NCBI GenBank assembly: GCA_016869045.1
Contig: VGFC01000007.1
Coordinates: forward strand, 1 to 47,672
Length of the DNA stretch: 47,672 bases
Source of the DNA: Armatimonadota bacterium
GTDB taxonomy: Bacteria > Armatimonadota > Zipacnadia > Zipacnadales > VGFC01
Reading direction: 5' to 3'
Below are positions 2,567 to 26,577 of the stretch, piece after piece. The notes beneath the pieces were generated by a model. That model searched no databases and had not been told where the DNA came from. It saw only the letters and a program-made list of their open reading frames with translations. The position numbers and the translations under genes are program-made. The stretch's first letter is position 1. Each line of letters opens with the position of its first letter.

Positions 2567-3628
2567 TCACAGCCAACCCTTGCGGCGGAAAACGCACAGC
2601 ATCCAGACCGCAATGGCCGCCATGGCGCTCAGGACAACGGGGTAGCCCCAAGGCGAGCGGAGTTCAGGCATGTGCTCGAAGTTCATGCCGTAGACCCCGG
2701 CGATGAAGGTTAGCGGCATGAACACGGTGCCGATGACCGCCAGGAGCTTCATCACGACATTCAGCCGGTTGCTGATGCTGGACAGGTAGATGTCGAGCAT
2801 CCCCGAACCGATGTCCCGCAACGCCTCGATGGTGTCGATCACCTGGATCGTGTGGTCGTACAGGTCGCGCACGTACGGCTCGATGGCCCTCCCAATCAGC
2901 GGCGTCTCCCGCCGCTCAAGCGCCCCTACGACCTCTCGCAGCGGCCAAGTCGCCTTGCGCAGGTAGATCGTCTCACGCTTCAGGCGATGGATGCGCTGCA
3001 GCAGCTCCGGCGTCGGGTTCTCGGCCACATCGTCCTCCATCAGCTCCACCTCCTCGCCGAGCTTCTCCAGCGCCACGAAGTACTTGTCCACCACCGTGTC
3101 CAGCAGCGCATAGGCCAGGTAGTCGGCGCCCATCGTCAGGGCCCGCGCCTTCCCGGAGGCCAGCCGCTCGCGCAGGGCGGCAAACACATCCGGCTCGGCC
3201 TCCTGGAAGGAAAGCACGAAGCTCGGACCGAGGATGAGGCTGATCTGCTCGGAGACCACTTCGTCCGTCTGGGGGTCCCATTCGATGGTCTTGACGATGA
3301 TCTACAGGTAGTCGGCGAAGTCCTCCACCTTCACCCGCTGGTCCGTATTCATGATGTCCTCGAGCACGAGCCCGTGGAGACCAAAGCACGCACCAAGCCG
3401 CTCCAGCACCTGCTGATCCCCGACCCCGACCACGTTGATCCAGGTCACTCCCGGGCCCGTCTCGATAGCGGGGCAGCCCTCGGACAGGTCGAACTGCTGT
3501 TCCTCGTACCGACCGTCTCCGTACCGAGTCACCATGGCGCGGGGCCGCTCCGGCGCCCGCTCCCCGATGTGCACGAGTGTGCCCGGCTCAAGACCGGCGG
3601 CCGTGGACTGCTGCAGTAGCTTGCGCAT
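2567..3628 (-). pseudogene. corA: corA Mg2+ channel gene interrupted by one in-frame TAG
   Basis: Read through the stop, this is a full-length CorA of about 353 codons. The N-terminal part (3628-3302, 108 residues) has the family segments GVTWINVVG, LHGLVLEDIMNTDQRVKVEDF and ends DYL. A TAG at 3304-3302 follows, and the same frame continues IIVKTIEWD...VVSEQISLILG (known CorA: NYVFIVLKM at this place). The long coiled helix, KRETIYLRKATWPLREV, YDHTIQVIDTIEALRDI, the first membrane helix, the YGMNFE signature with the GMN selectivity motif, the second helix and a basic tail FRRKGWL follow. Restart at an internal GTG (3259) would give a 230-residue fragment lacking the N-terminal cytoplasmic domain. 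Everything else is intact, so the stop is recent or a sequencing or assembly error. Confidence 0.88.
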
Positions 3629-3681
3629 GGCGATCCTCGCTACTTGGGAGAATCCGGTGGACACCGACGACGACCCGGTCG

Positions 3682-3710
3682 GCCGGCCCGCACTTCCCCT
3701 CCGGGCCGGC
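3682..3710. repeat. 9-bp hairpin in the corA/ankyrin divergent spacer
   Basis: GCCGGCCCG at 3682-3690 pairs perfectly with CGGGCCGGC at 3702-3710 across an 11-base loop. A smaller hairpin (CCCC-TGC-CGGGG) follows at once. The 12-mer CCGGGGAGGTCC occurs twice in the spacer, at 3720-3731 and 3787-3798; the second copy holds the ribosome binding site of the ankyrin-repeat gene. The spacer separates two divergent starts, so the structures fall in a 5' leader. Confidence 0.6.
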
Positions 3711-3804
3711 TGTCCCCTGCCGGGGAGGTCCCTTCGCCAACCCGACGGAAGCTGAGACGGCCAAGGGTTGCCTGTCTCGCTCTCCCCCGGGGAGGTCCAG
3801 CGCA

Positions 3805-5229
3805 ATGGCTCTTCGGTTCCTCGTCGCGAGCGTGCTCGTCTATGCCACAGGCGTCTGTGCCGCAGCCACCGACCCCGTCTTCCAGGCCATCTGGGACGGC
3901 GACCTCGCCGCGCTGCAGAAGCTGCTGGACGACGGCGCCGACCCCAACCTCCTCGGCTACCGGCAGGCCAGGCCCCTGCACGATGCGGCACGCAAGGGCA
4001 ACCTCGGCATGGTGGAGCTGCTGATTGAGCGCGGTGCCGACGTCAGCGCGCTGGATGACCAGCGAAGTGCGCCGCTCCACCGAGCCGTGGAGTCCGGTCA
4101 CGCCGACATTGTAAGGGCACTGCTGGCGGCAGGCGCGGACCCGAACGGGGTGAACGACTGGAAGCAGAGCCCCATGTCCCTGGCCGTCGGCCAGCATCGT
4201 GTAGACATCGTGCAGATGCTGCTGGATGCCGGGGTGCCGTGGACCCTCAGCCTGGCGGCCCTCGTCGGGAATGTTGGCAAGGTCACCGAGTTCCTGGACG
4301 CGGGCGCGGACGTGAACGCCCTCGATGCGGATGGCGTGGCGCCCCTGCACGTCGCAGCCTGGCACGGTCAGCTCGACGTCGTGAAGCTGCTGCTTGGCCG
4401 GGGGGCCAAGGTCGACGCTCACGACGCCGGCGGCCTCACGCCCCTGCATCACGCTGCTCACGCCGGCCAAGCCGACGTCGCAGAGGCGCTGGTGAAGGCG
4501 GGAGCCGACCTCCACGCCACGAAGCCGAATGGCGCCACCGCCCTCCATTGCACTGCGTATCTGCCGTGGCCGCGCGAACCCGAGCCAATGGCCCGGCACG
4601 CCGAGACGGCCCGCCGGCTAGTCGCCCTCGGCGCCGACGTGAACGCGAAGACCGCGGATGGGGCCACGCCCTTGCACCGGGCGGCCGAGAGCGGGCTCGA
4701 AGGGGTCGCGCGGGTCCTGCGCGAGGCAGGCTGCGCCGCCAATGTCGAAGACCTCCAGGGGAGGACAGCTCTCGACTATGCCGGCGATACCACAAGGGAC
4801 CCACTCATCGCGGCCGGCGCCAAGCGCGGCCTTGAGCACGCACTGGCGGAACCTGACCTCCACCGTCTGCAGGAGATCCTCGACGCGGGCCGGCCGGTGA
4901 ACGACCGCAACATCGCCGGCGCGACGCTGCTGCACCGCGCGATCGCCTACGGCCACGCCGACGTGCTGAAGCTGCTCCTGGAGCGCGGCGCCGACGTCAA
5001 CGCCAAGGATGACAGGGGCAGAACGCCCCTGCACTGGGTCTGCGAGGGGCCCAACTCGAACGCCTCGTACAGCGACGAAGCGGTGGCTGTGGAACTTGCC
5101 GAGGTGCTCATAGCCCACGGCGCCAACGTCAACGCCAAGGACGACAACGGTGAGACCCCCCTGAAGGTCGCAAAGGACTGGGAGAACCGCGCCGTCGCCG
5201 CCCTCCTCCGCAAGCACGGTGCCCGGTGA
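3805..5229 (+). CDS. Exported ankyrin-repeat protein
   Basis: The start chosen is the ATG at 3805, preceded by GGGGAGG, giving 474 residues and a signal peptide (MALRFLVASVLVYATGVCAA). The frame stays open further upstream, but that stretch is not protein-like. The mature protein is almost wholly about a dozen ankyrin repeats, with many canonical units such as ADVNALDADGVAPLHVAAWHG, ADVNAKDDRGRTPLHW and ANVNAKDDNGETPLKVA. Two units near the middle (GVPWTLSLAALVGN and KRGLEHALAEPDL) are degenerate. Ankyrin arrays bind proteins; a periplasmic or extracellular location follows from the signal peptide. No enzymatic domain is present and the partner is unknown. Confidence 0.93.
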   Translation: MALRFLVASVLVYATGVCAAATDPVFQAIWDGDLAALQKLLDDGADPNLLGYRQARPLHDAARKGNLGMVELLIERGADVSALDDQRSAPLHRAVESGHADIVRALLAAGADPNGVNDWKQSPMSLAVGQHRVDIVQMLLDAGVPWTLSLAALVGNVGKVTEFLDAGADVNALDADGVAPLHVAAWHGQLDVVKLLLGRGAKVDAHDAGGLTPLHHAAHAGQADVAEALVKAGADLHATKPNGATALHCTAYLPWPREPEPMARHAETARRLVALGADVNAKTADGATPLHRAAESGLEGVARVLREAGCAANVEDLQGRTALDYAGDTTRDPLIAAGAKRGLEHALAEPDLHRLQEILDAGRPVNDRNIAGATLLHRAIAYGHADVLKLLLERGADVNAKDDRGRTPLHWVCEGPNSNASYSDEAVAVELAEVLIAHGANVNAKDDNGETPLKVAKDWENRAVAALLRKHGAR

Positions 5230-5254
5230 CAAGATGAGCCTTGACCGCGAGTGC

Positions 5255-5280
5255 TTACAGTGTTAGCATATCTGCTGTAA
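5255..5280 (+). promoter_or_regulatory. Candidate operator/promoter of the toxin-antitoxin pair
   Basis: The inverted repeat TTACAG (5255-5260) and CTGTAA (5275-5280), 14 bases apart, lies 24 bases before the antitoxin start in one of the few AT-rich patches of the window. TGTAAT occurs twice at its right edge (5276-5281 and 5281-5286) and could supply a -10 element. Ribbon-helix-helix antitoxins usually repress their own operon by binding such dyads. This is inferred from position and symmetry only. Confidence 0.35.
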
Positions 5281-5304
5281 TGTAATCACTCTCGGAGGCC
5301 CGCC

Positions 5305-5553
5305 ATGGTACGCACGCAGGTGCAGTTGACGGAGGAGCAAGCGGCCGCCGTTAAGCGGCTGGCGATGGAGCACAACATCTCGCAGGCGGAGGTGCTCCGA
5401 CGGTGCGTGGATGACTACATCGCCCGGAATGGCCGGTCGGGGAGGGACGAGATCTGGGAGCGGGCGCGGGCGGCTGTGGGGTTCATCAAGAACGGCCCCA
5501 CGGATATGGCGGCGCGCCATGACGACTACCTGGCGGAGGCCTACGAGGAATGA
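5305..5553 (+). CDS. Ribbon-helix-helix antitoxin (CopG/VapB type)
   Basis: An 82-residue protein. The first about 45 residues match the ribbon-helix-helix fold: a beta strand VRTQVQLTEEQ, then helices AAAVKRLAMEHN and ISQAEVLRRCVDDYIARN. The charged tail would contact the toxin. The ATG at 5305 follows CGGAGG. Its TGA overlaps the ATG of the PIN-domain gene (ATGA), the usual translational coupling of a toxin-antitoxin operon. The expected role is to neutralise the downstream nuclease and repress the shared promoter, where an inverted repeat is present. The symbol vapB is not given because the family of RHH antitoxins is broad. Confidence 0.88.
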   Translation: MVRTQVQLTEEQAAAVKRLAMEHNISQAEVLRRCVDDYIARNGRSGRDEIWERARAAVGFIKNGPTDMAARHDDYLAEAYEE

Positions 5554-5966
5554 GGGTCTTCGCGGACACATCCGCCTTGATCGCCGTGTCGCTGGCCACC
5601 GACCGCTCCCATGGCGCAGCGAGGCCGGTCTGGGACAGGCTTACGTCGACGCACACCCCACCGATCGTGACGAACTACGTGCTGCTCGAGCTGCACGCCA
5701 TGCTGCAGAAGCGCTTCGGGATGACCGCTGTCCACGAGTTCGCCAACCGCATCGAGCCGGTTCTCCAAGTTCACTGGGTCGGTGAGGACACCCACCGGGC
5801 CGCCCTGGCAGCCCTCTTGTCTGCCAATCGCCGTGAACTGAGCCTCGTGGACTGCGCCAGTTTCATCGTCATGCGCAACCTCGGCCTCACGCGCGCTTTC
5901 ACCCTCGACCCCCATTTCGCCGAGCAGGGCTTCGAGGTCATCCCCGAAGCCCCACCGAGCACATAG
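5550..5966 (+). CDS. PIN-domain ribonuclease toxin (VapC type)
   Basis: A 138-residue PIN domain protein of normal VapC length. The acidic metal-binding residues are in place: Asp6 in VFADTSALIA, the Glu of VLLELHAML, the Asp of ELSLVDCASF and the late Asp of FTLDPHFAEQGFEVIP. These coordinate Mg2+/Mn2+ for RNA cleavage in the family. It overlaps the antitoxin gene by four bases and is translationally coupled to it. It ends 20 bases from a convergent gene. The active site looks intact, so a functional toxin is likely; the target RNA (tRNA or rRNA in studied VapCs) cannot be read from sequence. Confidence 0.92.
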   Translation: MRVFADTSALIAVSLATDRSHGAARPVWDRLTSTHTPPIVTNYVLLELHAMLQKRFGMTAVHEFANRIEPVLQVHWVGEDTHRAALAALLSANRRELSLVDCASFIVMRNLGLTRAFTLDPHFAEQGFEVIPEAPPST

Positions 5967-5986
5967 CCGCCTTCCCACGGTCCGGC

Positions 5987-7174
5987 TCAGCCGTCCCGCA
6001 CGCAGCGCACCAGGTTCAGGATGCGGATGGCGTCGCCCTGCGGGCCGCGTCCGTAGGGGAACTGCGAGGGATCGCCCGTCTTGGGGTCGCTGCGCTGGGC
6101 GCCGGCGCCGTGCACGTCCATCCAGTACCCGCCCATGCAGCCGTAGGCCTCGCCAAAGCACACATAGCACGCCGCGGCGCCCGCGACCGGCCCGTCCAGG
6201 TGCGTCGTGCTGGTCCAGTAGCACCCGAAGGTCGGGCGCCCATCTTCGCCCGTGATGGGCGTGCACGCGAACAGCGGGTCGATCGCTGCCGAGTTGGTCG
6301 TCCGCGGCGACCGCGTGTAGTCCACGATGCTCTGCAGCTCCTTCGCGTTCGGCAGGCGCCAGTCGTCGTGCCCGGCCAGCCCGAGGCCCTCTGCGTAGGC
6401 CAGGGCCCCCTGCCAGTTACGGGCCACGCCGTCATCCGCCTGCTGCCACATCAGGCCCGTGGCCCGGTCGCTGACCGTGCCGTCGCCGTTGTCCACGAAG
6501 CTGTTCCTTCCGTAGGCCGGGTTGCCGCGCACGTACAAACAGCAGAACAGCTTCGCCTGGCCGCCGCCGGGCCCGGGCCTGACCTTCGGGTAGCCCTTGA
6601 TCCGCCCATCCGCGAAGTTCACCCCGAACACCGTGGGGTTGCCGTTCATCGTGGTGCTCACATACTCGGTGCTGGAGCAGTACTGGCTGTCGATGGGGCG
6701 CTCGCCGCGGGCCGGGTCACCGTACGAGAAGACGAAGTAGCGCGTGTCGATGTAGGGCTTCCAGCCGTTCGGGCCGGGGCTGATTGACCCCGTGAACTCG
6801 ATCAGCGAGTACAGCTCCTTGATCGTCGGCAATCGCCAGTCCGTGTGCCCCCCCAGCCTGCAGTCCGCCGCTCCGGCGACCGCCTGCTCCCAGCTGACCT
6901 TCGGCCCGGGGTCCTTCTGCCACATGAGCCCCGTGTTCAGGTCGCTGATCGTTCCGTCGCCGTTGTCCCGGTAGCTCGGAGTCGGCCCCGCGTGCTGCCC
7001 ATCCTGGCCGTAGAAAGGCTGCCCCGGCGCGGGCAGGTCGATCTGCCGCGCGTTGTCATAGCACGCCGTCTGCCCCGTGTCGACGACCACGTAGGTCACA
7101 TCGGTCGCGGCGTGCTGCCCGACCGGCAGGACCATCCAGCCCAGCGCTGCCAATGCATGGCTCAGGATCGTCAT
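5987..7174 (-). CDS. Exported protein with two DUF1566 (Lcl C-terminal-like) domains
   Basis: A 395-residue protein with an N-terminal hydrophobic signal (ILSHALAALGWMVLPVG). It contains two DUF1566 units. The first runs about residues 60-215 (DNGDGTISDLNTGLMWQKD, GHTDWRLPTIKELYSLIEF, YCSSTEYVS). The second runs about 225-395 (DNGDGTVSDRATGLMWQQ, GHDDWRLPNAKELQSIVDY, CYWTSTTHLDG, CVRDG). Each unit resembles the lectin-like C-terminus of Legionella collagen-like adhesin and formylglycine-enzyme folds, and lacks a known catalytic site. Its start is 22 bases after the stop of the 1150-residue exported protein, so the two probably form an operon. An adhesive or carbohydrate-binding role is inferred. 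Confidence 0.87.
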   Translation of the reverse strand: MTILSHALAALGWMVLPVGQHAATDVTYVVVDTGQTACYDNARQIDLPAPGQPFYGQDGQHAGPTPSYRDNGDGTISDLNTGLMWQKDPGPKVSWEQAVAGAADCRLGGHTDWRLPTIKELYSLIEFTGSISPGPNGWKPYIDTRYFVFSYGDPARGERPIDSQYCSSTEYVSTTMNGNPTVFGVNFADGRIKGYPKVRPGPGGGQAKLFCCLYVRGNPAYGRNSFVDNGDGTVSDRATGLMWQQADDGVARNWQGALAYAEGLGLAGHDDWRLPNAKELQSIVDYTRSPRTTNSAAIDPLFACTPITGEDGRPTFGCYWTSTTHLDGPVAGAAACYVCFGEAYGCMGGYWMDVHGAGAQRSDPKTGDPSQFPYGRGPQGDAIRILNLVRCVRDG

Positions 7175-12971: not shown

Positions 12972-12999
12972 CAGGTTACAGGTCACAGGTGACAGGTGA
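12972..12999. repeat. Four tandem 7-bp repeats CAGGTNA
   Basis: Four consecutive heptamers CAGGTTA, CAGGTCA, CAGGTGA, CAGGTGA occupy 12972-12999 in the spacer between the GH172 and amidohydrolase genes. Only the sixth base varies. Heptameric tandem repeats of this kind are known as simple intergenic repeats in some bacteria. The array could change length by slippage and so alter spacing before the downstream gene, but no function is shown. Confidence 0.8.
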
Positions 13000-13058: not shown

Positions 13059-14192
13059 ATGAGCGAATGGGCTTCGAGGATGAGCGGCATCGTGGACGGG
13101 CATGTGCATCCGGGAGGGCCGGATACTGTGGCGGCGCTGCTATCGCTCTGCGAGGCGACGGGGATCGACAGGATGGGGCTGGTGGCGATCCAGAACCCGG
13201 AGGCCGGGGCGGGTCTGCCGGGCGCCCTGTACGCGAAGGCGCTCCATCCCGAGCGCTTCTACGTGTTCGCGGGGCTGAACCACGCTGGGATTCGGGGACA
13301 TGACCCAATTCACGCCTCATCGAATTGGGATCGTGTCCCCGAATCCCTATCCCTCGCCGAGCAGGCCGAGGCCTTCGTCGCGATGGGCTGCGACGGGATC
13401 AAGATGATCGAGGGCAAGCCCACCTCGCGCCAGCGCATGGACGTGCCCGTCACCGATCCGTACTTCGCGGACTACTGGAGCCGTGTCGAGGAGCTGGGCC
13501 TGCCCATCGTGTGGCACGTGAACGACCCGGAGGAGTTCTGGGACCCTGAGAAGACCCCCGGCTGGGCGAAGGAGCGCAACTGGGGTTACGGGCCGCAGGA
13601 CGTGCAGAAGGAGGAGCTGTACGCCGAGGTCGATGAGACCCTGCGCCGTCACCCGAAGCTGAAGGTGATCTTCGCGCACTTCTACTTCCTCTCGGCCGAC
13701 CTCCCGCGCGCCACGCGCTTCCTCGACGAGCACCCGAACGTGTGCTTCGACCTCGCGCCCGGCGTCGAGATGCTCTACAACATCTCGCGCGACCCCGAGG
13801 CAGGCCGCGAGTTCTTCATCCGCCACGCGAGCCGCATTGTCTTCGGTACGGACCTGTCGGCCGGCATGAGCAACGAGCCGGGCGTGTACCGCGCGGGGAT
13901 CGTCTTTCGCTGGCTGGAGAGCGACGATGAGTTCCGCATGCCCGACGGCGCCGACTTCCTCCTCGGCCCGCCGGAGGACGGCATCGTGCGCGGCCTCTCA
14001 CTTCCCGACGACGCCCTCACCGCCATCTACCGGGGAAACCTCACACGGCTCGCGGGCCCAGAGCCCAAGCCCCTGAACGTCCCGCGCGTCATCGAGGAGT
14101 GTAACCGCCTCGCCTCCATCGCCGCGGCCCTCTCAGGGAAGCCTGCCGCCGACACCGAGGCCGCCCAAGTCGCCCAACGCCTGGCGCAGTGA
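13059..14192 (+). CDS. Amidohydrolase-2 family metal-dependent hydrolase carrying a palindromic insert
   Basis: The ATG at 13059 with GGAGG seven bases upstream gives 377 residues; upstream in-frame starts fall in the heptamer repeat and lack a ribosome site. Family metal ligands are present: HxH in IVDGHVHPGG, His of LPIVWHVNDP, His of KVIFAHFYFL and Asp of RIVFGTDLSAG, in the order of a TIM-barrel amidohydrolase_2. Residues 77-97 (GIRGHDPIHASSNWDRVPES) are encoded by a 61-bp palindrome that also occurs in the GH2 gene at 24888-24950. The surrounding sequence, FYVFAGLNHA and SLAEQAEAFVAMGCDGIKMIEG, reads as continuous family sequence with the insert between. Substrate unknown. A hairpin overlaps its stop. 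Confidence 0.9.
   Translation: MSEWASRMSGIVDGHVHPGGPDTVAALLSLCEATGIDRMGLVAIQNPEAGAGLPGALYAKALHPERFYVFAGLNHAGIRGHDPIHASSNWDRVPESLSLAEQAEAFVAMGCDGIKMIEGKPTSRQRMDVPVTDPYFADYWSRVEELGLPIVWHVNDPEEFWDPEKTPGWAKERNWGYGPQDVQKEELYAEVDETLRRHPKLKVIFAHFYFLSADLPRATRFLDEHPNVCFDLAPGVEMLYNISRDPEAGREFFIRHASRIVFGTDLSAGMSNEPGVYRAGIVFRWLESDDEFRMPDGADFLLGPPEDGIVRGLSLPDDALTAIYRGNLTRLAGPEPKPLNVPRVIEECNRLASIAAALSGKPAADTEAAQVAQRLAQ
13287..13347 (+). repeat. In-frame palindromic element, copy 1
   Basis: A 61-bp palindrome inside the amidohydrolase gene. The outer arms GGGATTCGGGGACA and TGTCCCCGAATCCC pair over 14 bases. The inner arms CCCAATTC and GAATTGGG pair over 8, with a small asymmetric bulge between and a 10-base loop (ACGCCTCATC). 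The central 55 bases match copy 2 at 24890-24948 (approximate edges) except for one A/G in the loop. The element contributes about 20 residues without a stop. The same register on the other strand is also open. Confidence 0.93.
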
Positions 14193-24024: not shown

Positions 24025-26577
24025 ATGGCGCCGATGACGATCTCGCTGGACGGTAGCGACTGGCGCGTGCTGCCGCTGATGCCGCGCGAGTGGGAGTGGC
24101 GGCGCGTGTGGGAGAAGCCGGAGACCGTCACGCCTGCGCTCTGGATTCCGGCGCAGGTGCCCGGCACCGTGCAGGACGACGCGTTCGACGCGGGACTGAT
24201 CCCGGACTACACCACGGACTTCCACAGCCGTGACTGCGAGTGGACGAGCGAGCGGGACTGGGTCTACCTGAAGGAGTTCGCCGCGCCCGAGGTACCCGAG
24301 GGCGGCGTCGTGCGGCTCATCTTCGAGGGCGTAGACTACGAGTGCCGCGTCTACCTCAACGGACAGTTCCTTGGCCACCACGAGGGCATGTACGATGCGT
24401 TCGAGTTCGAGGTCACGCGCCTCCTGAGCCGCGAGGGCCCGAACAAGCTGGTGGTGATCTGCGAGCACGCGCCCCGCGAGGTCGGGCAGATTGGCCGCAC
24501 GAGCGAGGTGCGGCTCTGGAAGGCGCGGTTCGCCTACGATTGGGACTGGTGCACGCGCCTCGTGCCCATCGGCATCTACGAGAGCGTGCGGCTGGAGGTG
24601 ACCGGCCCCGCCTACATCAGCGATGTGCAGGTGTACACGCAACTGAGCGAGGACCTGAGCGAGGCCGAGGTCGGTGTCTCGGTGGACATCGGCTGCGCGC
24701 TAGCCGCGCCAGTCACGGTCTACACCACCCTCCTGCAGGATGGGCGGAAGGTCGCCTCGCGCTCGGGTGAGGTGCTAGCGACGGGTGGCATGACGACCTA
24801 CTCAGTTCGCTGCCCGGTCCCGGAGCCCAAGCTCTGGTGGCCGAACGGCTACGGCGAGCAGCCCCTCTACGAAGCGGAGGTCTCACTGGGAATTCGGGGA
24901 CATGACCCAATTCGCGCCTCATCGAATTGGGATCGTGTCCCCGAATTCCCCCTTGACACGAAGACCGTCACCTTCGGCATCCGCCGCGTGCGGGCGCTCC
25001 CGAATGACGGTGCACCCGAGGACGCGAAGCCCTACGTGCTGGAGGTCAACGGCAAGCGCGTCTACATCAAGGGCTGGAACTGGGCGCCGATCCAGCAGCT
25101 CTATGGGCGGCCGGGCCACGAGATGTACGAGCGCTGGCTAACGCTCGCGAAGGACGCGAACTGCAACCTGCTGCGCGTGTGGGGCGGCGGATTGCTGGAG
25201 AAGGAGTGCTTCTACAGCCTCTGCGACCGCCTTGGCATCATGGTCTGGCAGGAGTTCATCCACTCCTCGTCGGGCATCGACAACCGGCCGAGCACCGCGC
25301 CCGGCTACCTGCGCTACATCCGCCGGCAGGCGATGAAGATGGTGCCCCGGCGGCGCAACCATCCGTCGCTGGTGATCTGGACCGGCGGCAACGAGCTGAT
25401 GCACGACAACTGGACGCCGCTGGATGACACGCATCCGGCGCTGGCGGTGCTGAAGGAGGTCGTGCAGCGCCTCGATCCCGGCCGCCTCTGGTATCCCACC
25501 TCCGGCTGCGGCCCGGTGGAGAACGCCAGCCTCGAGCATGTCGGCAAGATGCACGACGTGCACGGCCCCTGGCAGTACCAGGGCCCGGCCGAGCACTACC
25601 GGCTGTACAACGGGATCGACGCGCTCCTGCACTCGGAGATGGGCGTCGAGGGCGCCGCGAACATCGAGGCGATGCGCAAGATCGCCGTCAGGCAGCCCCT
25701 CTGGCCGCCGGACGAGACGAACCCCCTCTGGCTTCACCACGGCGCGTGGTGGGTACAGCGCCCGATGATGGAGCGCGTCTTCGGCAGGATCGAGGACCTC
25801 GAGACCTACGTGAAGCTGAGCCAGCTCCTGCAGGCCGAGGGCTTGCGCTACTGCCTGGAGGCCAACCGCCGCCGCAAGTGGCGCTGCGGTGGGACGATGC
25901 CCTGGCAGTTCAACGAGTCCTGGCCCAACCTCTCCTGCACCAACGTGGTGGACTACTACGGCCAGCCGCGCCCCGCCTACTGGTGGTGCCGCAACGCGTA
26001 TGAGCCCTTCCACGTCAGCGCGAAGTATGACAAGCTGGGCTGGCAACCGGGCGAGACCTTCGAGACGGAGGTCTGGGTCAACAACTCGCTGGACGCGGCG
26101 CCCGGGACGCGCGTGACCTGGACCCTTTCCGACCTTCACGACCGGACCCTCGCCGCAGGGGAGGCCACAATTGACGCGCCCGCCTGCGGCGCCCTGCGGG
26201 TGGCGACGGCCTCCTGGCAAGTCGAGCGCCTGGAAGGGGCGGTCTTCATTCTCCACCTCAACGCCCTGGCACCCTCGATGCGGGGCTCAGCCAACTACTA
26301 CCTTTTCTCAACCGCCGACGAGCCCCTCTTCGCCGGGCTCGTCAGCGCGCCGAGGACTGAGCTGGTGGTCTCGCGCGTCGGCCGCGAACTGGAGATCACC
26401 AATGTCGGTGGCGTGTGGGCGCTCGGGGTACACCTGACGCCGACTGATGGAGGCTGGATCCGGTTCGACTCGAACTACCTCTCGCTCGCGCCCGGGCAGA
26501 CGTATTCGATGTGCTTCCTGCCCGAGGAGGCGAAGCTGCAAGTGAGCGGCCTGAACGTCGATGAGCAGGAAGTGTGA
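24025..26577 (+). CDS. GH2 beta-mannosidase-like glycosidase carrying a palindromic insert
   Basis: An 850-residue GH2 enzyme of the beta-mannosidase type. The jelly-roll domain opens ISLDGSDWRVLPLMP and WIPAQVPGTVQDDAFDAGLI. WGGGLLEKECFYSLCDRLGIMVWQEF leads to the acid/base Glu457 in IWTGGNELMHDN, and the nucleophile is probably Glu538 in LLHSEMGVEG. No signal peptide is seen. Residues about 289-309 (GIRGHDPIRASSNWDRVPE) come from a palindromic element at 24888-24950, inserted between YEAEVSL and LDTKTVTFGIRRVR, which normally join in a short turn of the immunoglobulin-like domain. The catalytic domain is undisturbed. It would remove beta-mannosyl or related residues from oligosaccharides. 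Confidence 0.94.
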   Translation: MAPMTISLDGSDWRVLPLMPREWEWRRVWEKPETVTPALWIPAQVPGTVQDDAFDAGLIPDYTTDFHSRDCEWTSERDWVYLKEFAAPEVPEGGVVRLIFEGVDYECRVYLNGQFLGHHEGMYDAFEFEVTRLLSREGPNKLVVICEHAPREVGQIGRTSEVRLWKARFAYDWDWCTRLVPIGIYESVRLEVTGPAYISDVQVYTQLSEDLSEAEVGVSVDIGCALAAPVTVYTTLLQDGRKVASRSGEVLATGGMTTYSVRCPVPEPKLWWPNGYGEQPLYEAEVSLGIRGHDPIRASSNWDRVPEFPLDTKTVTFGIRRVRALPNDGAPEDAKPYVLEVNGKRVYIKGWNWAPIQQLYGRPGHEMYERWLTLAKDANCNLLRVWGGGLLEKECFYSLCDRLGIMVWQEFIHSSSGIDNRPSTAPGYLRYIRRQAMKMVPRRRNHPSLVIWTGGNELMHDNWTPLDDTHPALAVLKEVVQRLDPGRLWYPTSGCGPVENASLEHVGKMHDVHGPWQYQGPAEHYRLYNGIDALLHSEMGVEGAANIEAMRKIAVRQPLWPPDETNPLWLHHGAWWVQRPMMERVFGRIEDLETYVKLSQLLQAEGLRYCLEANRRRKWRCGGTMPWQFNESWPNLSCTNVVDYYGQPRPAYWWCRNAYEPFHVSAKYDKLGWQPGETFETEVWVNNSLDAAPGTRVTWTLSDLHDRTLAAGEATIDAPACGALRVATASWQVERLEGAVFILHLNALAPSMRGSANYYLFSTADEPLFAGLVSAPRTELVVSRVGRELEITNVGGVWALGVHLTPTDGGWIRFDSNYLSLAPGQTYSMCFLPEEAKLQVSGLNVDEQEV
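24888..24950 (+). repeat. In-frame palindromic element, copy 2
   Basis: A 63-bp palindrome inside the GH2 gene, with outer arms GGGAATTCGGGGACA and TGTCCCCGAATTCCC, inner arms CCCAATTC and GAATTGGG, and loop GCGCCTCATC. Its 55-base core differs from copy 1 (13287-13347) at one loop base. Relative to copy 1 it has one extra A in the left outer arm and one extra T in the right, so pairing is preserved. It is read in the same codon register as copy 1, giving the same peptide apart from Arg for His. Confidence 0.94.

Follow-up and report, generated by a model that had tools for sequence, protein, structure and literature searches.

A probable REPIN-type mobile hairpin in an Armatimonadota genome that appears to replace short stretches of host proteins

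A palindromic segment lying in frame inside an amidohydrolase gene of an Armatimonadota bacterium probably belongs to the copies of a mobile, non-autonomous REPIN-type hairpin, which would be mobilized by a RAYT and whose arrival would cost the host gene a short piece of its own DNA. The segment was found in a window of 47,672 nucleotides (contig VGFC01000007.1, assembly GCA_016869045.1) that carries a second copy in a gene for a GH2 protein. Both window copies are members of a dispersed family of imperfect palindromes of ~60 bp with ~90 copies in the genome.

Results

The two copies in the window

The features of the two copies and of their host genes are collected in Table 1. As the initial annotation of this DNA had stated, the 55-base cores (13289-13343 and 24891-24945) differ by a single loop base, A or G, and the copies are read in frame in unrelated hosts, for which Pfam gives Amidohydro_2 and GH2, respectively. 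In both genes the element is translated as GIRGHDPI-(H/R)-ASSNWDRVPE. Folded as single-stranded DNA, each copy forms a single hairpin, whose stem has 25 or 27 pairs with one bulged A in the right arm and one G.T wobble and whose loop has 8-10 bases. The fold energies of -26.7 and -29.8 kcal/mol for copies 1 and 2 (z ~ -7.6 and -7.9) were never reached by shuffled sequences. The amidohydrolase gene probably starts with the ATG at 13059, which follows an AGGAGG; the longest ORF begins with GTG at 12996. Elsewhere in the window, an ORF at 3577-5229 contains spaced 62-nt direct repeats of ankyrin-like appearance (3917-5163; spacings 99, 270, 99, 228, 357, and 132).

Table 1. Palindromic elements and host genes in the window.
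Feature	Position	Strand	Remarks and evidence
Palindromic element, copy 1	13287-13347, 61 bp	+	In frame in amidohydrolase gene; sequence, DNA fold, family search
Copy 1 arms	left 13287-13311, loop 13312-13321, right 13322-13347		Bulged A at 13330
Palindromic element, copy 2	24888-24950, 63 bp	+	In frame in GH2 gene; sequence, DNA fold, family search
Copy 2 arms	left 24888-24914, loop 24915-24922, right 24923-24950		Bulged A at 24932
Amidohydrolase gene (Amidohydro_2), host of copy 1	13059-14192	+	Pfam, homologues
GH2 (beta-mannosidase-like) gene, host of copy 2	24025-26577	+	Pfam, orthologue, solved homologue

A dispersed family of imperfect palindromes

The genome of the window is a fragmented MAG of 7.87 Mb in 723 contigs with a completeness of 95%. 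The half-core motifs occur in it 95 (left) and 106 (right) times and not once in a reversed control, and the exact paired core gives 86 matches vs. 0 in the reversed control. From the DNA of this genome we catalogued 94 paired copies representing 85 distinct sequences. A 63-base query retrieved dozens of full-length copies besides those in the window. One 60-mer was found five times, at unrelated loci, which points to recent copying. The proposal that the element had recently moved or been copied into coding DNA is supported by the many nearly identical copies (five fully identical) at unrelated loci and by orthologues that lack the element. The ~90 copies also exclude a lone duplicate or an assembly artefact, the case that the initial annotation had set against itself, as does one copy on a contig of another MAG (L322, VGBK01000209.1). 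This 3.2-kb contig, filed under an 'Actinomycetota bacterium' MAG (M_DeepCast_400m), is 100% identical to contig C197 of the window's own genome over 3,180 bp and is therefore probably misbinned.

The consensus of the family reads GGAATTC GGGGACATGA CCCAATTC - loop of ~9-11 - GAATTGGG A TCGTGTCCCC GAATTCC. Its cores GGGGACATGACCC and GGGATCGTGTCCCC are nearly invariant, whereas the outer AATT arms and the inner AATTC arms vary, often via paired changes. Compensatory double changes occupy 76 cells vs. a shuffled mean of 12.5 and maximum of 23, a figure that is inflated by kinship among the copies. The outermost GG/CC pair is complementary in 96% of the copies; one base further out pairing drops to 57%, and beyond that it is at background. 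The two halves are clearly in inverted orientation, and each folds only weakly on its own (-4.0 and -4.2 kcal/mol, with 11-12 of 200 shuffles equally good). Within 15 bases on either side of the hairpin there is no conserved GTAG/GGAG or CGTC foot tag; CGTC does occur inside the loop in 25 of the 94 copies, without a GACG partner. One subfamily has an extra A in the right outer arm (CCCCAGAATTCC) and its own loop types (L121:4362, L130:1135, L101:1070, L111:3487, and L150:4459). Two further copies are chimeric (L098, minus-strand match at 4073, and L104:1777-1822), with the left outer arm swapped for another repeat (GACTGTCCCTTGTTGnCGTTG...); palindromes of this type are also found flanking the C8 RAYT gene.

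Filled and empty insertion sites

The initial annotation had asked whether the segment might be an ancestral loop of its host. Comparison of both host proteins with homologues rules this out, since the homologues do not carry the element. Amidohydrolases of 58-70% identity have a loop of roughly 10 residues in its place, in several families one such as QKLSDGAVRTP between NHA and SLAEQ, and this loop is missing from the window protein. The same-genus orthologue of the GH2 protein (L190, 83% identity) reads AAPADTI where the window protein has 21 element-encoded residues (EVQVSL-AAPADTI-LDTKTV vs. EAEVSL-(21 residues)-LDTKTV), and a solved GH2 homologue, 5n6u, is also without the insert. The loop DNA at the empty L190 site, near position 2355, contains GGACACGATCC, an 11-mer that is identical, on the opposite strand, to the element's right-arm core and may be either a remnant of an older copy or a chance match.

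For the measurement of host loss, the element codons were cut out and the remainder was globally aligned to a homologue, a procedure that may exaggerate the loss by as much as about one residue when boundary codons are cut. Fifteen sites had a usable homologue; eight in-frame copies had none, and two (L102 and L119) were omitted because their homologues are weak. At 13 of the 15 sites, between 1 and 14 host residues (most often 5-7) are missing no further than four residues from the junction; the amidohydrolase has lost 11 and the GH2 protein 7. Alignments at ≥55% identity show almost no gap elsewhere. The two sites without loss both have an adjacent partial copy. As the homologues are 40-83% identical (mostly 45-83%) and the loops variable, part of the loss at the weaker sites could reflect independent loop shortening. 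These alignments suggest that the hairpin usually replaces a short stretch of host protein and is apparently not a mere addition.

When the host residues were lost is something we infer from the products: the element keeps its ends, and it is the host sequence that is trimmed up to the junction, which suggests that the loss occurs at insertion itself. Later selected deletion is the main rival. It holds that the hairpin was simply added, as for ordinary REPs and RPEs, and that host residues disappeared afterward through selected small deletions. The sites are variable loops and linkers that tolerate indels, the anthranilate synthase (L105) has lost only ~3 residues, and the two sites with adjacent partial copies have lost none, all of which would agree with such a course. 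It also predicts that the element should be cut as often as the host, yet its GG/CC ends are kept in nearly all copies and trimming to the junction on the host side is the rule. We therefore regard later deletion as unlikely, though a serious contender, and prefer loss at insertion.

Flanking direct repeats of 2-9 bases show no excess beyond chance. This absence of a target duplication led us to reject a classical MITE moved by a DDE transposase, which the family resembles in being short, non-autonomous, and present in many copies with inverted repeats; its continuous short-loop hairpin, in place of terminal repeats around a spacer, and the conservation of core and bulge make such an origin quite improbable as well.

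Copies inside genes

Genes were called with a home-made Markov coding model trained on the genome itself, and for this reason the count of in-frame copies is approximate. At least 25 of the 91 classifiable copies (25/91) lie in frame inside a gene vs. 62% of random positions, so that genic copies are depleted yet common. A stricter setting of the model gave 21, and some copies called one-sided are also in frame, e.g., L112 and L089, each accepted under one setting or alignment and rejected under the other. This count, which the initial annotation had recommended, shows a mostly extragenic family with ~73% of its copies outside reading frames. The hosts of the in-frame copies are working genes that the element has not disrupted, and they include trpE (anthranilate synthase component I), an ECF sigma factor (between regions 2 and 4), a QueT/ABC transporter protein, a nitrilase-type hydrolase, NAGidase, a pyruvate-formate-lyase-like enzyme, and several glycoside hydrolases. 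Pfam domains in the host proteins are recognized across the insert or on both of its sides.

The in-frame copies are read in frames +2 (6), +0 (4), -1 (7), -2 (7), and -0 (1), and 24 of the 25 use a stop-free frame, with all four stop-free frames, on both strands, represented. The + frame that contains a TGA is never used inside genes. At gene 3' ends, seven or eight copies supply the stop codon (...NSGT* or similar), and out-of-frame copies on the same strand are found mainly at or past gene ends. The shared codon register of the two window copies, correctly observed in the initial annotation, is uninformative: four frames of the element are free of stops, and copies in genes use every one of them. 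The match in register is a coincidence of about one in four.

The 'byp' elements of yeast mitochondria are hairpins that are skipped by the ribosome. Were the in-gene copies left untranslated in the same manner, their very stable hairpins within mRNAs (folded here as DNA) would be accounted for, but stops and frameshifts should then be tolerated; the almost exclusive use of stop-free frames and the position of the out-of-frame copies speak against this, and we consider ribosomal bypass very improbable. A true protein-coding palindromic element kept for its peptide, in the manner of the RPEs and as the term 'protein-coding element' had implied, fits the stop-free, in-frame placement in many genes but is likewise very improbable and, as one fixed element with one peptide, is refuted by the spread of copies over frames, since four peptides arise by frame and strand, most copies lie outside reading frames, several end a gene, and copies in other phyla are almost all outside genes.

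RAYT genes

The genome (G000) contains ten Y1_Tnp genes, several of the RAYT type, in line with the suggestion that such a gene be looked for. Six of the Y1 proteins were checked and all match NCBIfam REP_Tyr_transpos, five with strong E-values and most just below the cut-off. A search beside all 10 Y1 genes revealed no copy of the family. At least four of these genes adjoin palindromes that have the GGGAC/GTCCC plan of the family and differ from it in sequence: GAAATTAGGGACAGGCCCCAATTTC-loop-GAAATTGGGGCCTGTCCCTAATTTC at the C183 gene, GGGACTGTCC types at the C8 and C18 genes, and an GGGGACAGCAT type at the C140 gene. The C140 RAYT gene is flanked by short arrays of GGGGACAGCAT..ATGCTGTCCCC and GGGGACACCAT..ATGGTGTCCCC palindromes (L135, ~5100-6000).

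In a Desulfocapsa genome (L327), an exact-core copy lies 80 bp upstream of the ATG of a RAYT gene of 138 aa. Among nine element-bearing genomes with ~48 Y1 genes, of which 30 were inspected, this was the only gene with a copy beside it. Its product falls into a clade (99/98 support) with RAYTs of 8 of the 9 element-bearing genomes from other phyla and with the C485 RAYT of G000, a protein of 331 aa with a DnaA-like C-terminal part. On this basis we regard the C485-type RAYT as the best candidate for the mobilizer, and as a candidate only. A relative (G022) has a close C485-type RAYT and no element.

Distribution in other genomes

Extending the core search to the full genome and to related Armatimonadota, as had been advised, added a single exact paired core, in a genome of the same genus that also holds a few decayed copies; 289 other genomes of the phylum contain none. 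Among the matches listed from a scan of 84,980 species genomes, Desulfobacterota, Acidobacteriota, WOR-3, Planctomycetota, and Bipolaricaulota have the exact core, so that the hairpin core is common to at least six phyla (at least five besides its own). Of 40 copies in other phyla, only 4 are crossed by long frames vs. 46% of random positions, and copies there are nearly always intergenic. Five IMG/VR viral contigs (L361-L365) have the exact core pair, and viruses or proviruses may therefore carry the element.

Discussion

The structure, the copy number, the absence of a target duplication, and the architecture shared with the RAYT-linked palindromes of the same genome argue for a REPIN-type hairpin. 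Its stem of ~25-27 pairs would be made up of two REP-like halves in inverted orientation, and the conserved bulged A and G.T wobble would give the two strands differing shapes. A RAYT (the Y1/HUH 'REP-associated tyrosine transposase') would mobilize the hairpin as folded single-stranded DNA, with roughly 15-35 bp of host DNA lost at the moment of insertion at most sites. A possible route is that the hairpin is captured over a short single-strand gap, or that template switching occurs, either of which may yield a replacement product. Genic copies would survive only in tolerant surface loops or linkers, where they are read in a stop-free frame and alter the local length by a multiple of 3. Taken further, a RAYT-type hairpin would be written over short target DNA and would act in genes as a natural exchange system in which surface loops of enzymes give way to one of four hairpin-encoded peptides, a reading that we put forward tentatively and to which we give somewhat less than an even chance.

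To our knowledge, the mode of REPIN insertion by RAYTs is unsettled. In a genome where over 20 coding sites are filled and empty counterparts can be read, the products of insertion can be seen directly; they favor replacement of target DNA over clean insertion or target duplication. The occurrence of one core in at least six phyla makes horizontal spread and the identity of the mobilizing RAYT testable. What looks new is the signature of replacement, together with how extensive the coding insertions are in an Armatimonadota-like lineage. The kind of element is already known: intragenic palindromes and their in-frame placement have been described (Di Nocera et al., 2013; PMC3733652), and our data extend intragenic palindromes, in core enzymes, to a lineage outside those described.

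The initial annotation had named the Rickettsia palindromic element as the closest concept. RPEs are palindromes in open frames of many genes, at tolerated protein sites (recounted in PMC3733652). The family studied here likewise lies in frame in many genes of one genome, and the comparison holds as an analogy. RPEs belong to another lineage, RPE-1 is longer, and RPE-4 and RPE-6 match CGTC REPs in the passages of PMC3733652, the comparison being one of descriptions. The other option that had been offered, REP palindromes and RAYTs, is the better filing. Palindromes in the coding mitochondrial DNA of Nematomorpha (PMC6649704) are also inverted repeats within protein-coding genes; by their description they are organellar, perfect repeats of up to 284 bp.

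Intragenic REP dimers encode 20-30 residues in unrelated proteins, and REP ends can supply the stop codons of genes (Di Nocera et al., 2013; PMC3733652). That REPs are 'usually intergenic', as had been objected, does not exclude a REP, because intragenic in-frame dimers are described in that study. Our family agrees with these GTAG/CGTC REPs in forming dimers in ORFs of unrelated proteins and in providing stops from its ends. It differs from them in being without GTAG and in having CGTC in some loops, never as a paired end tag. The passages of that paper available to us do not mention loss of host residues at insertion, and Armatimonadota are absent from its text.

REPINs are REP doublets that have been studied along with RAYTs (Bertels and Rainey, 2011; PMC3116915). 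In contrast to these, our family has no flanking RAYT in its own genome, another core sequence, and no GTAG tag; because of the missing tag we file it as REPIN-type, outside the GTAG/CGTC superfamilies. The REPIN study counted extragenic copies, whereas about a quarter of the family in this genome lies in genes. Like REPINs, it consists of a dispersed unit of two inverted REP-like halves in ~100 near-identical copies, in a genome that also holds Y1 transposases and structurally similar palindromes.
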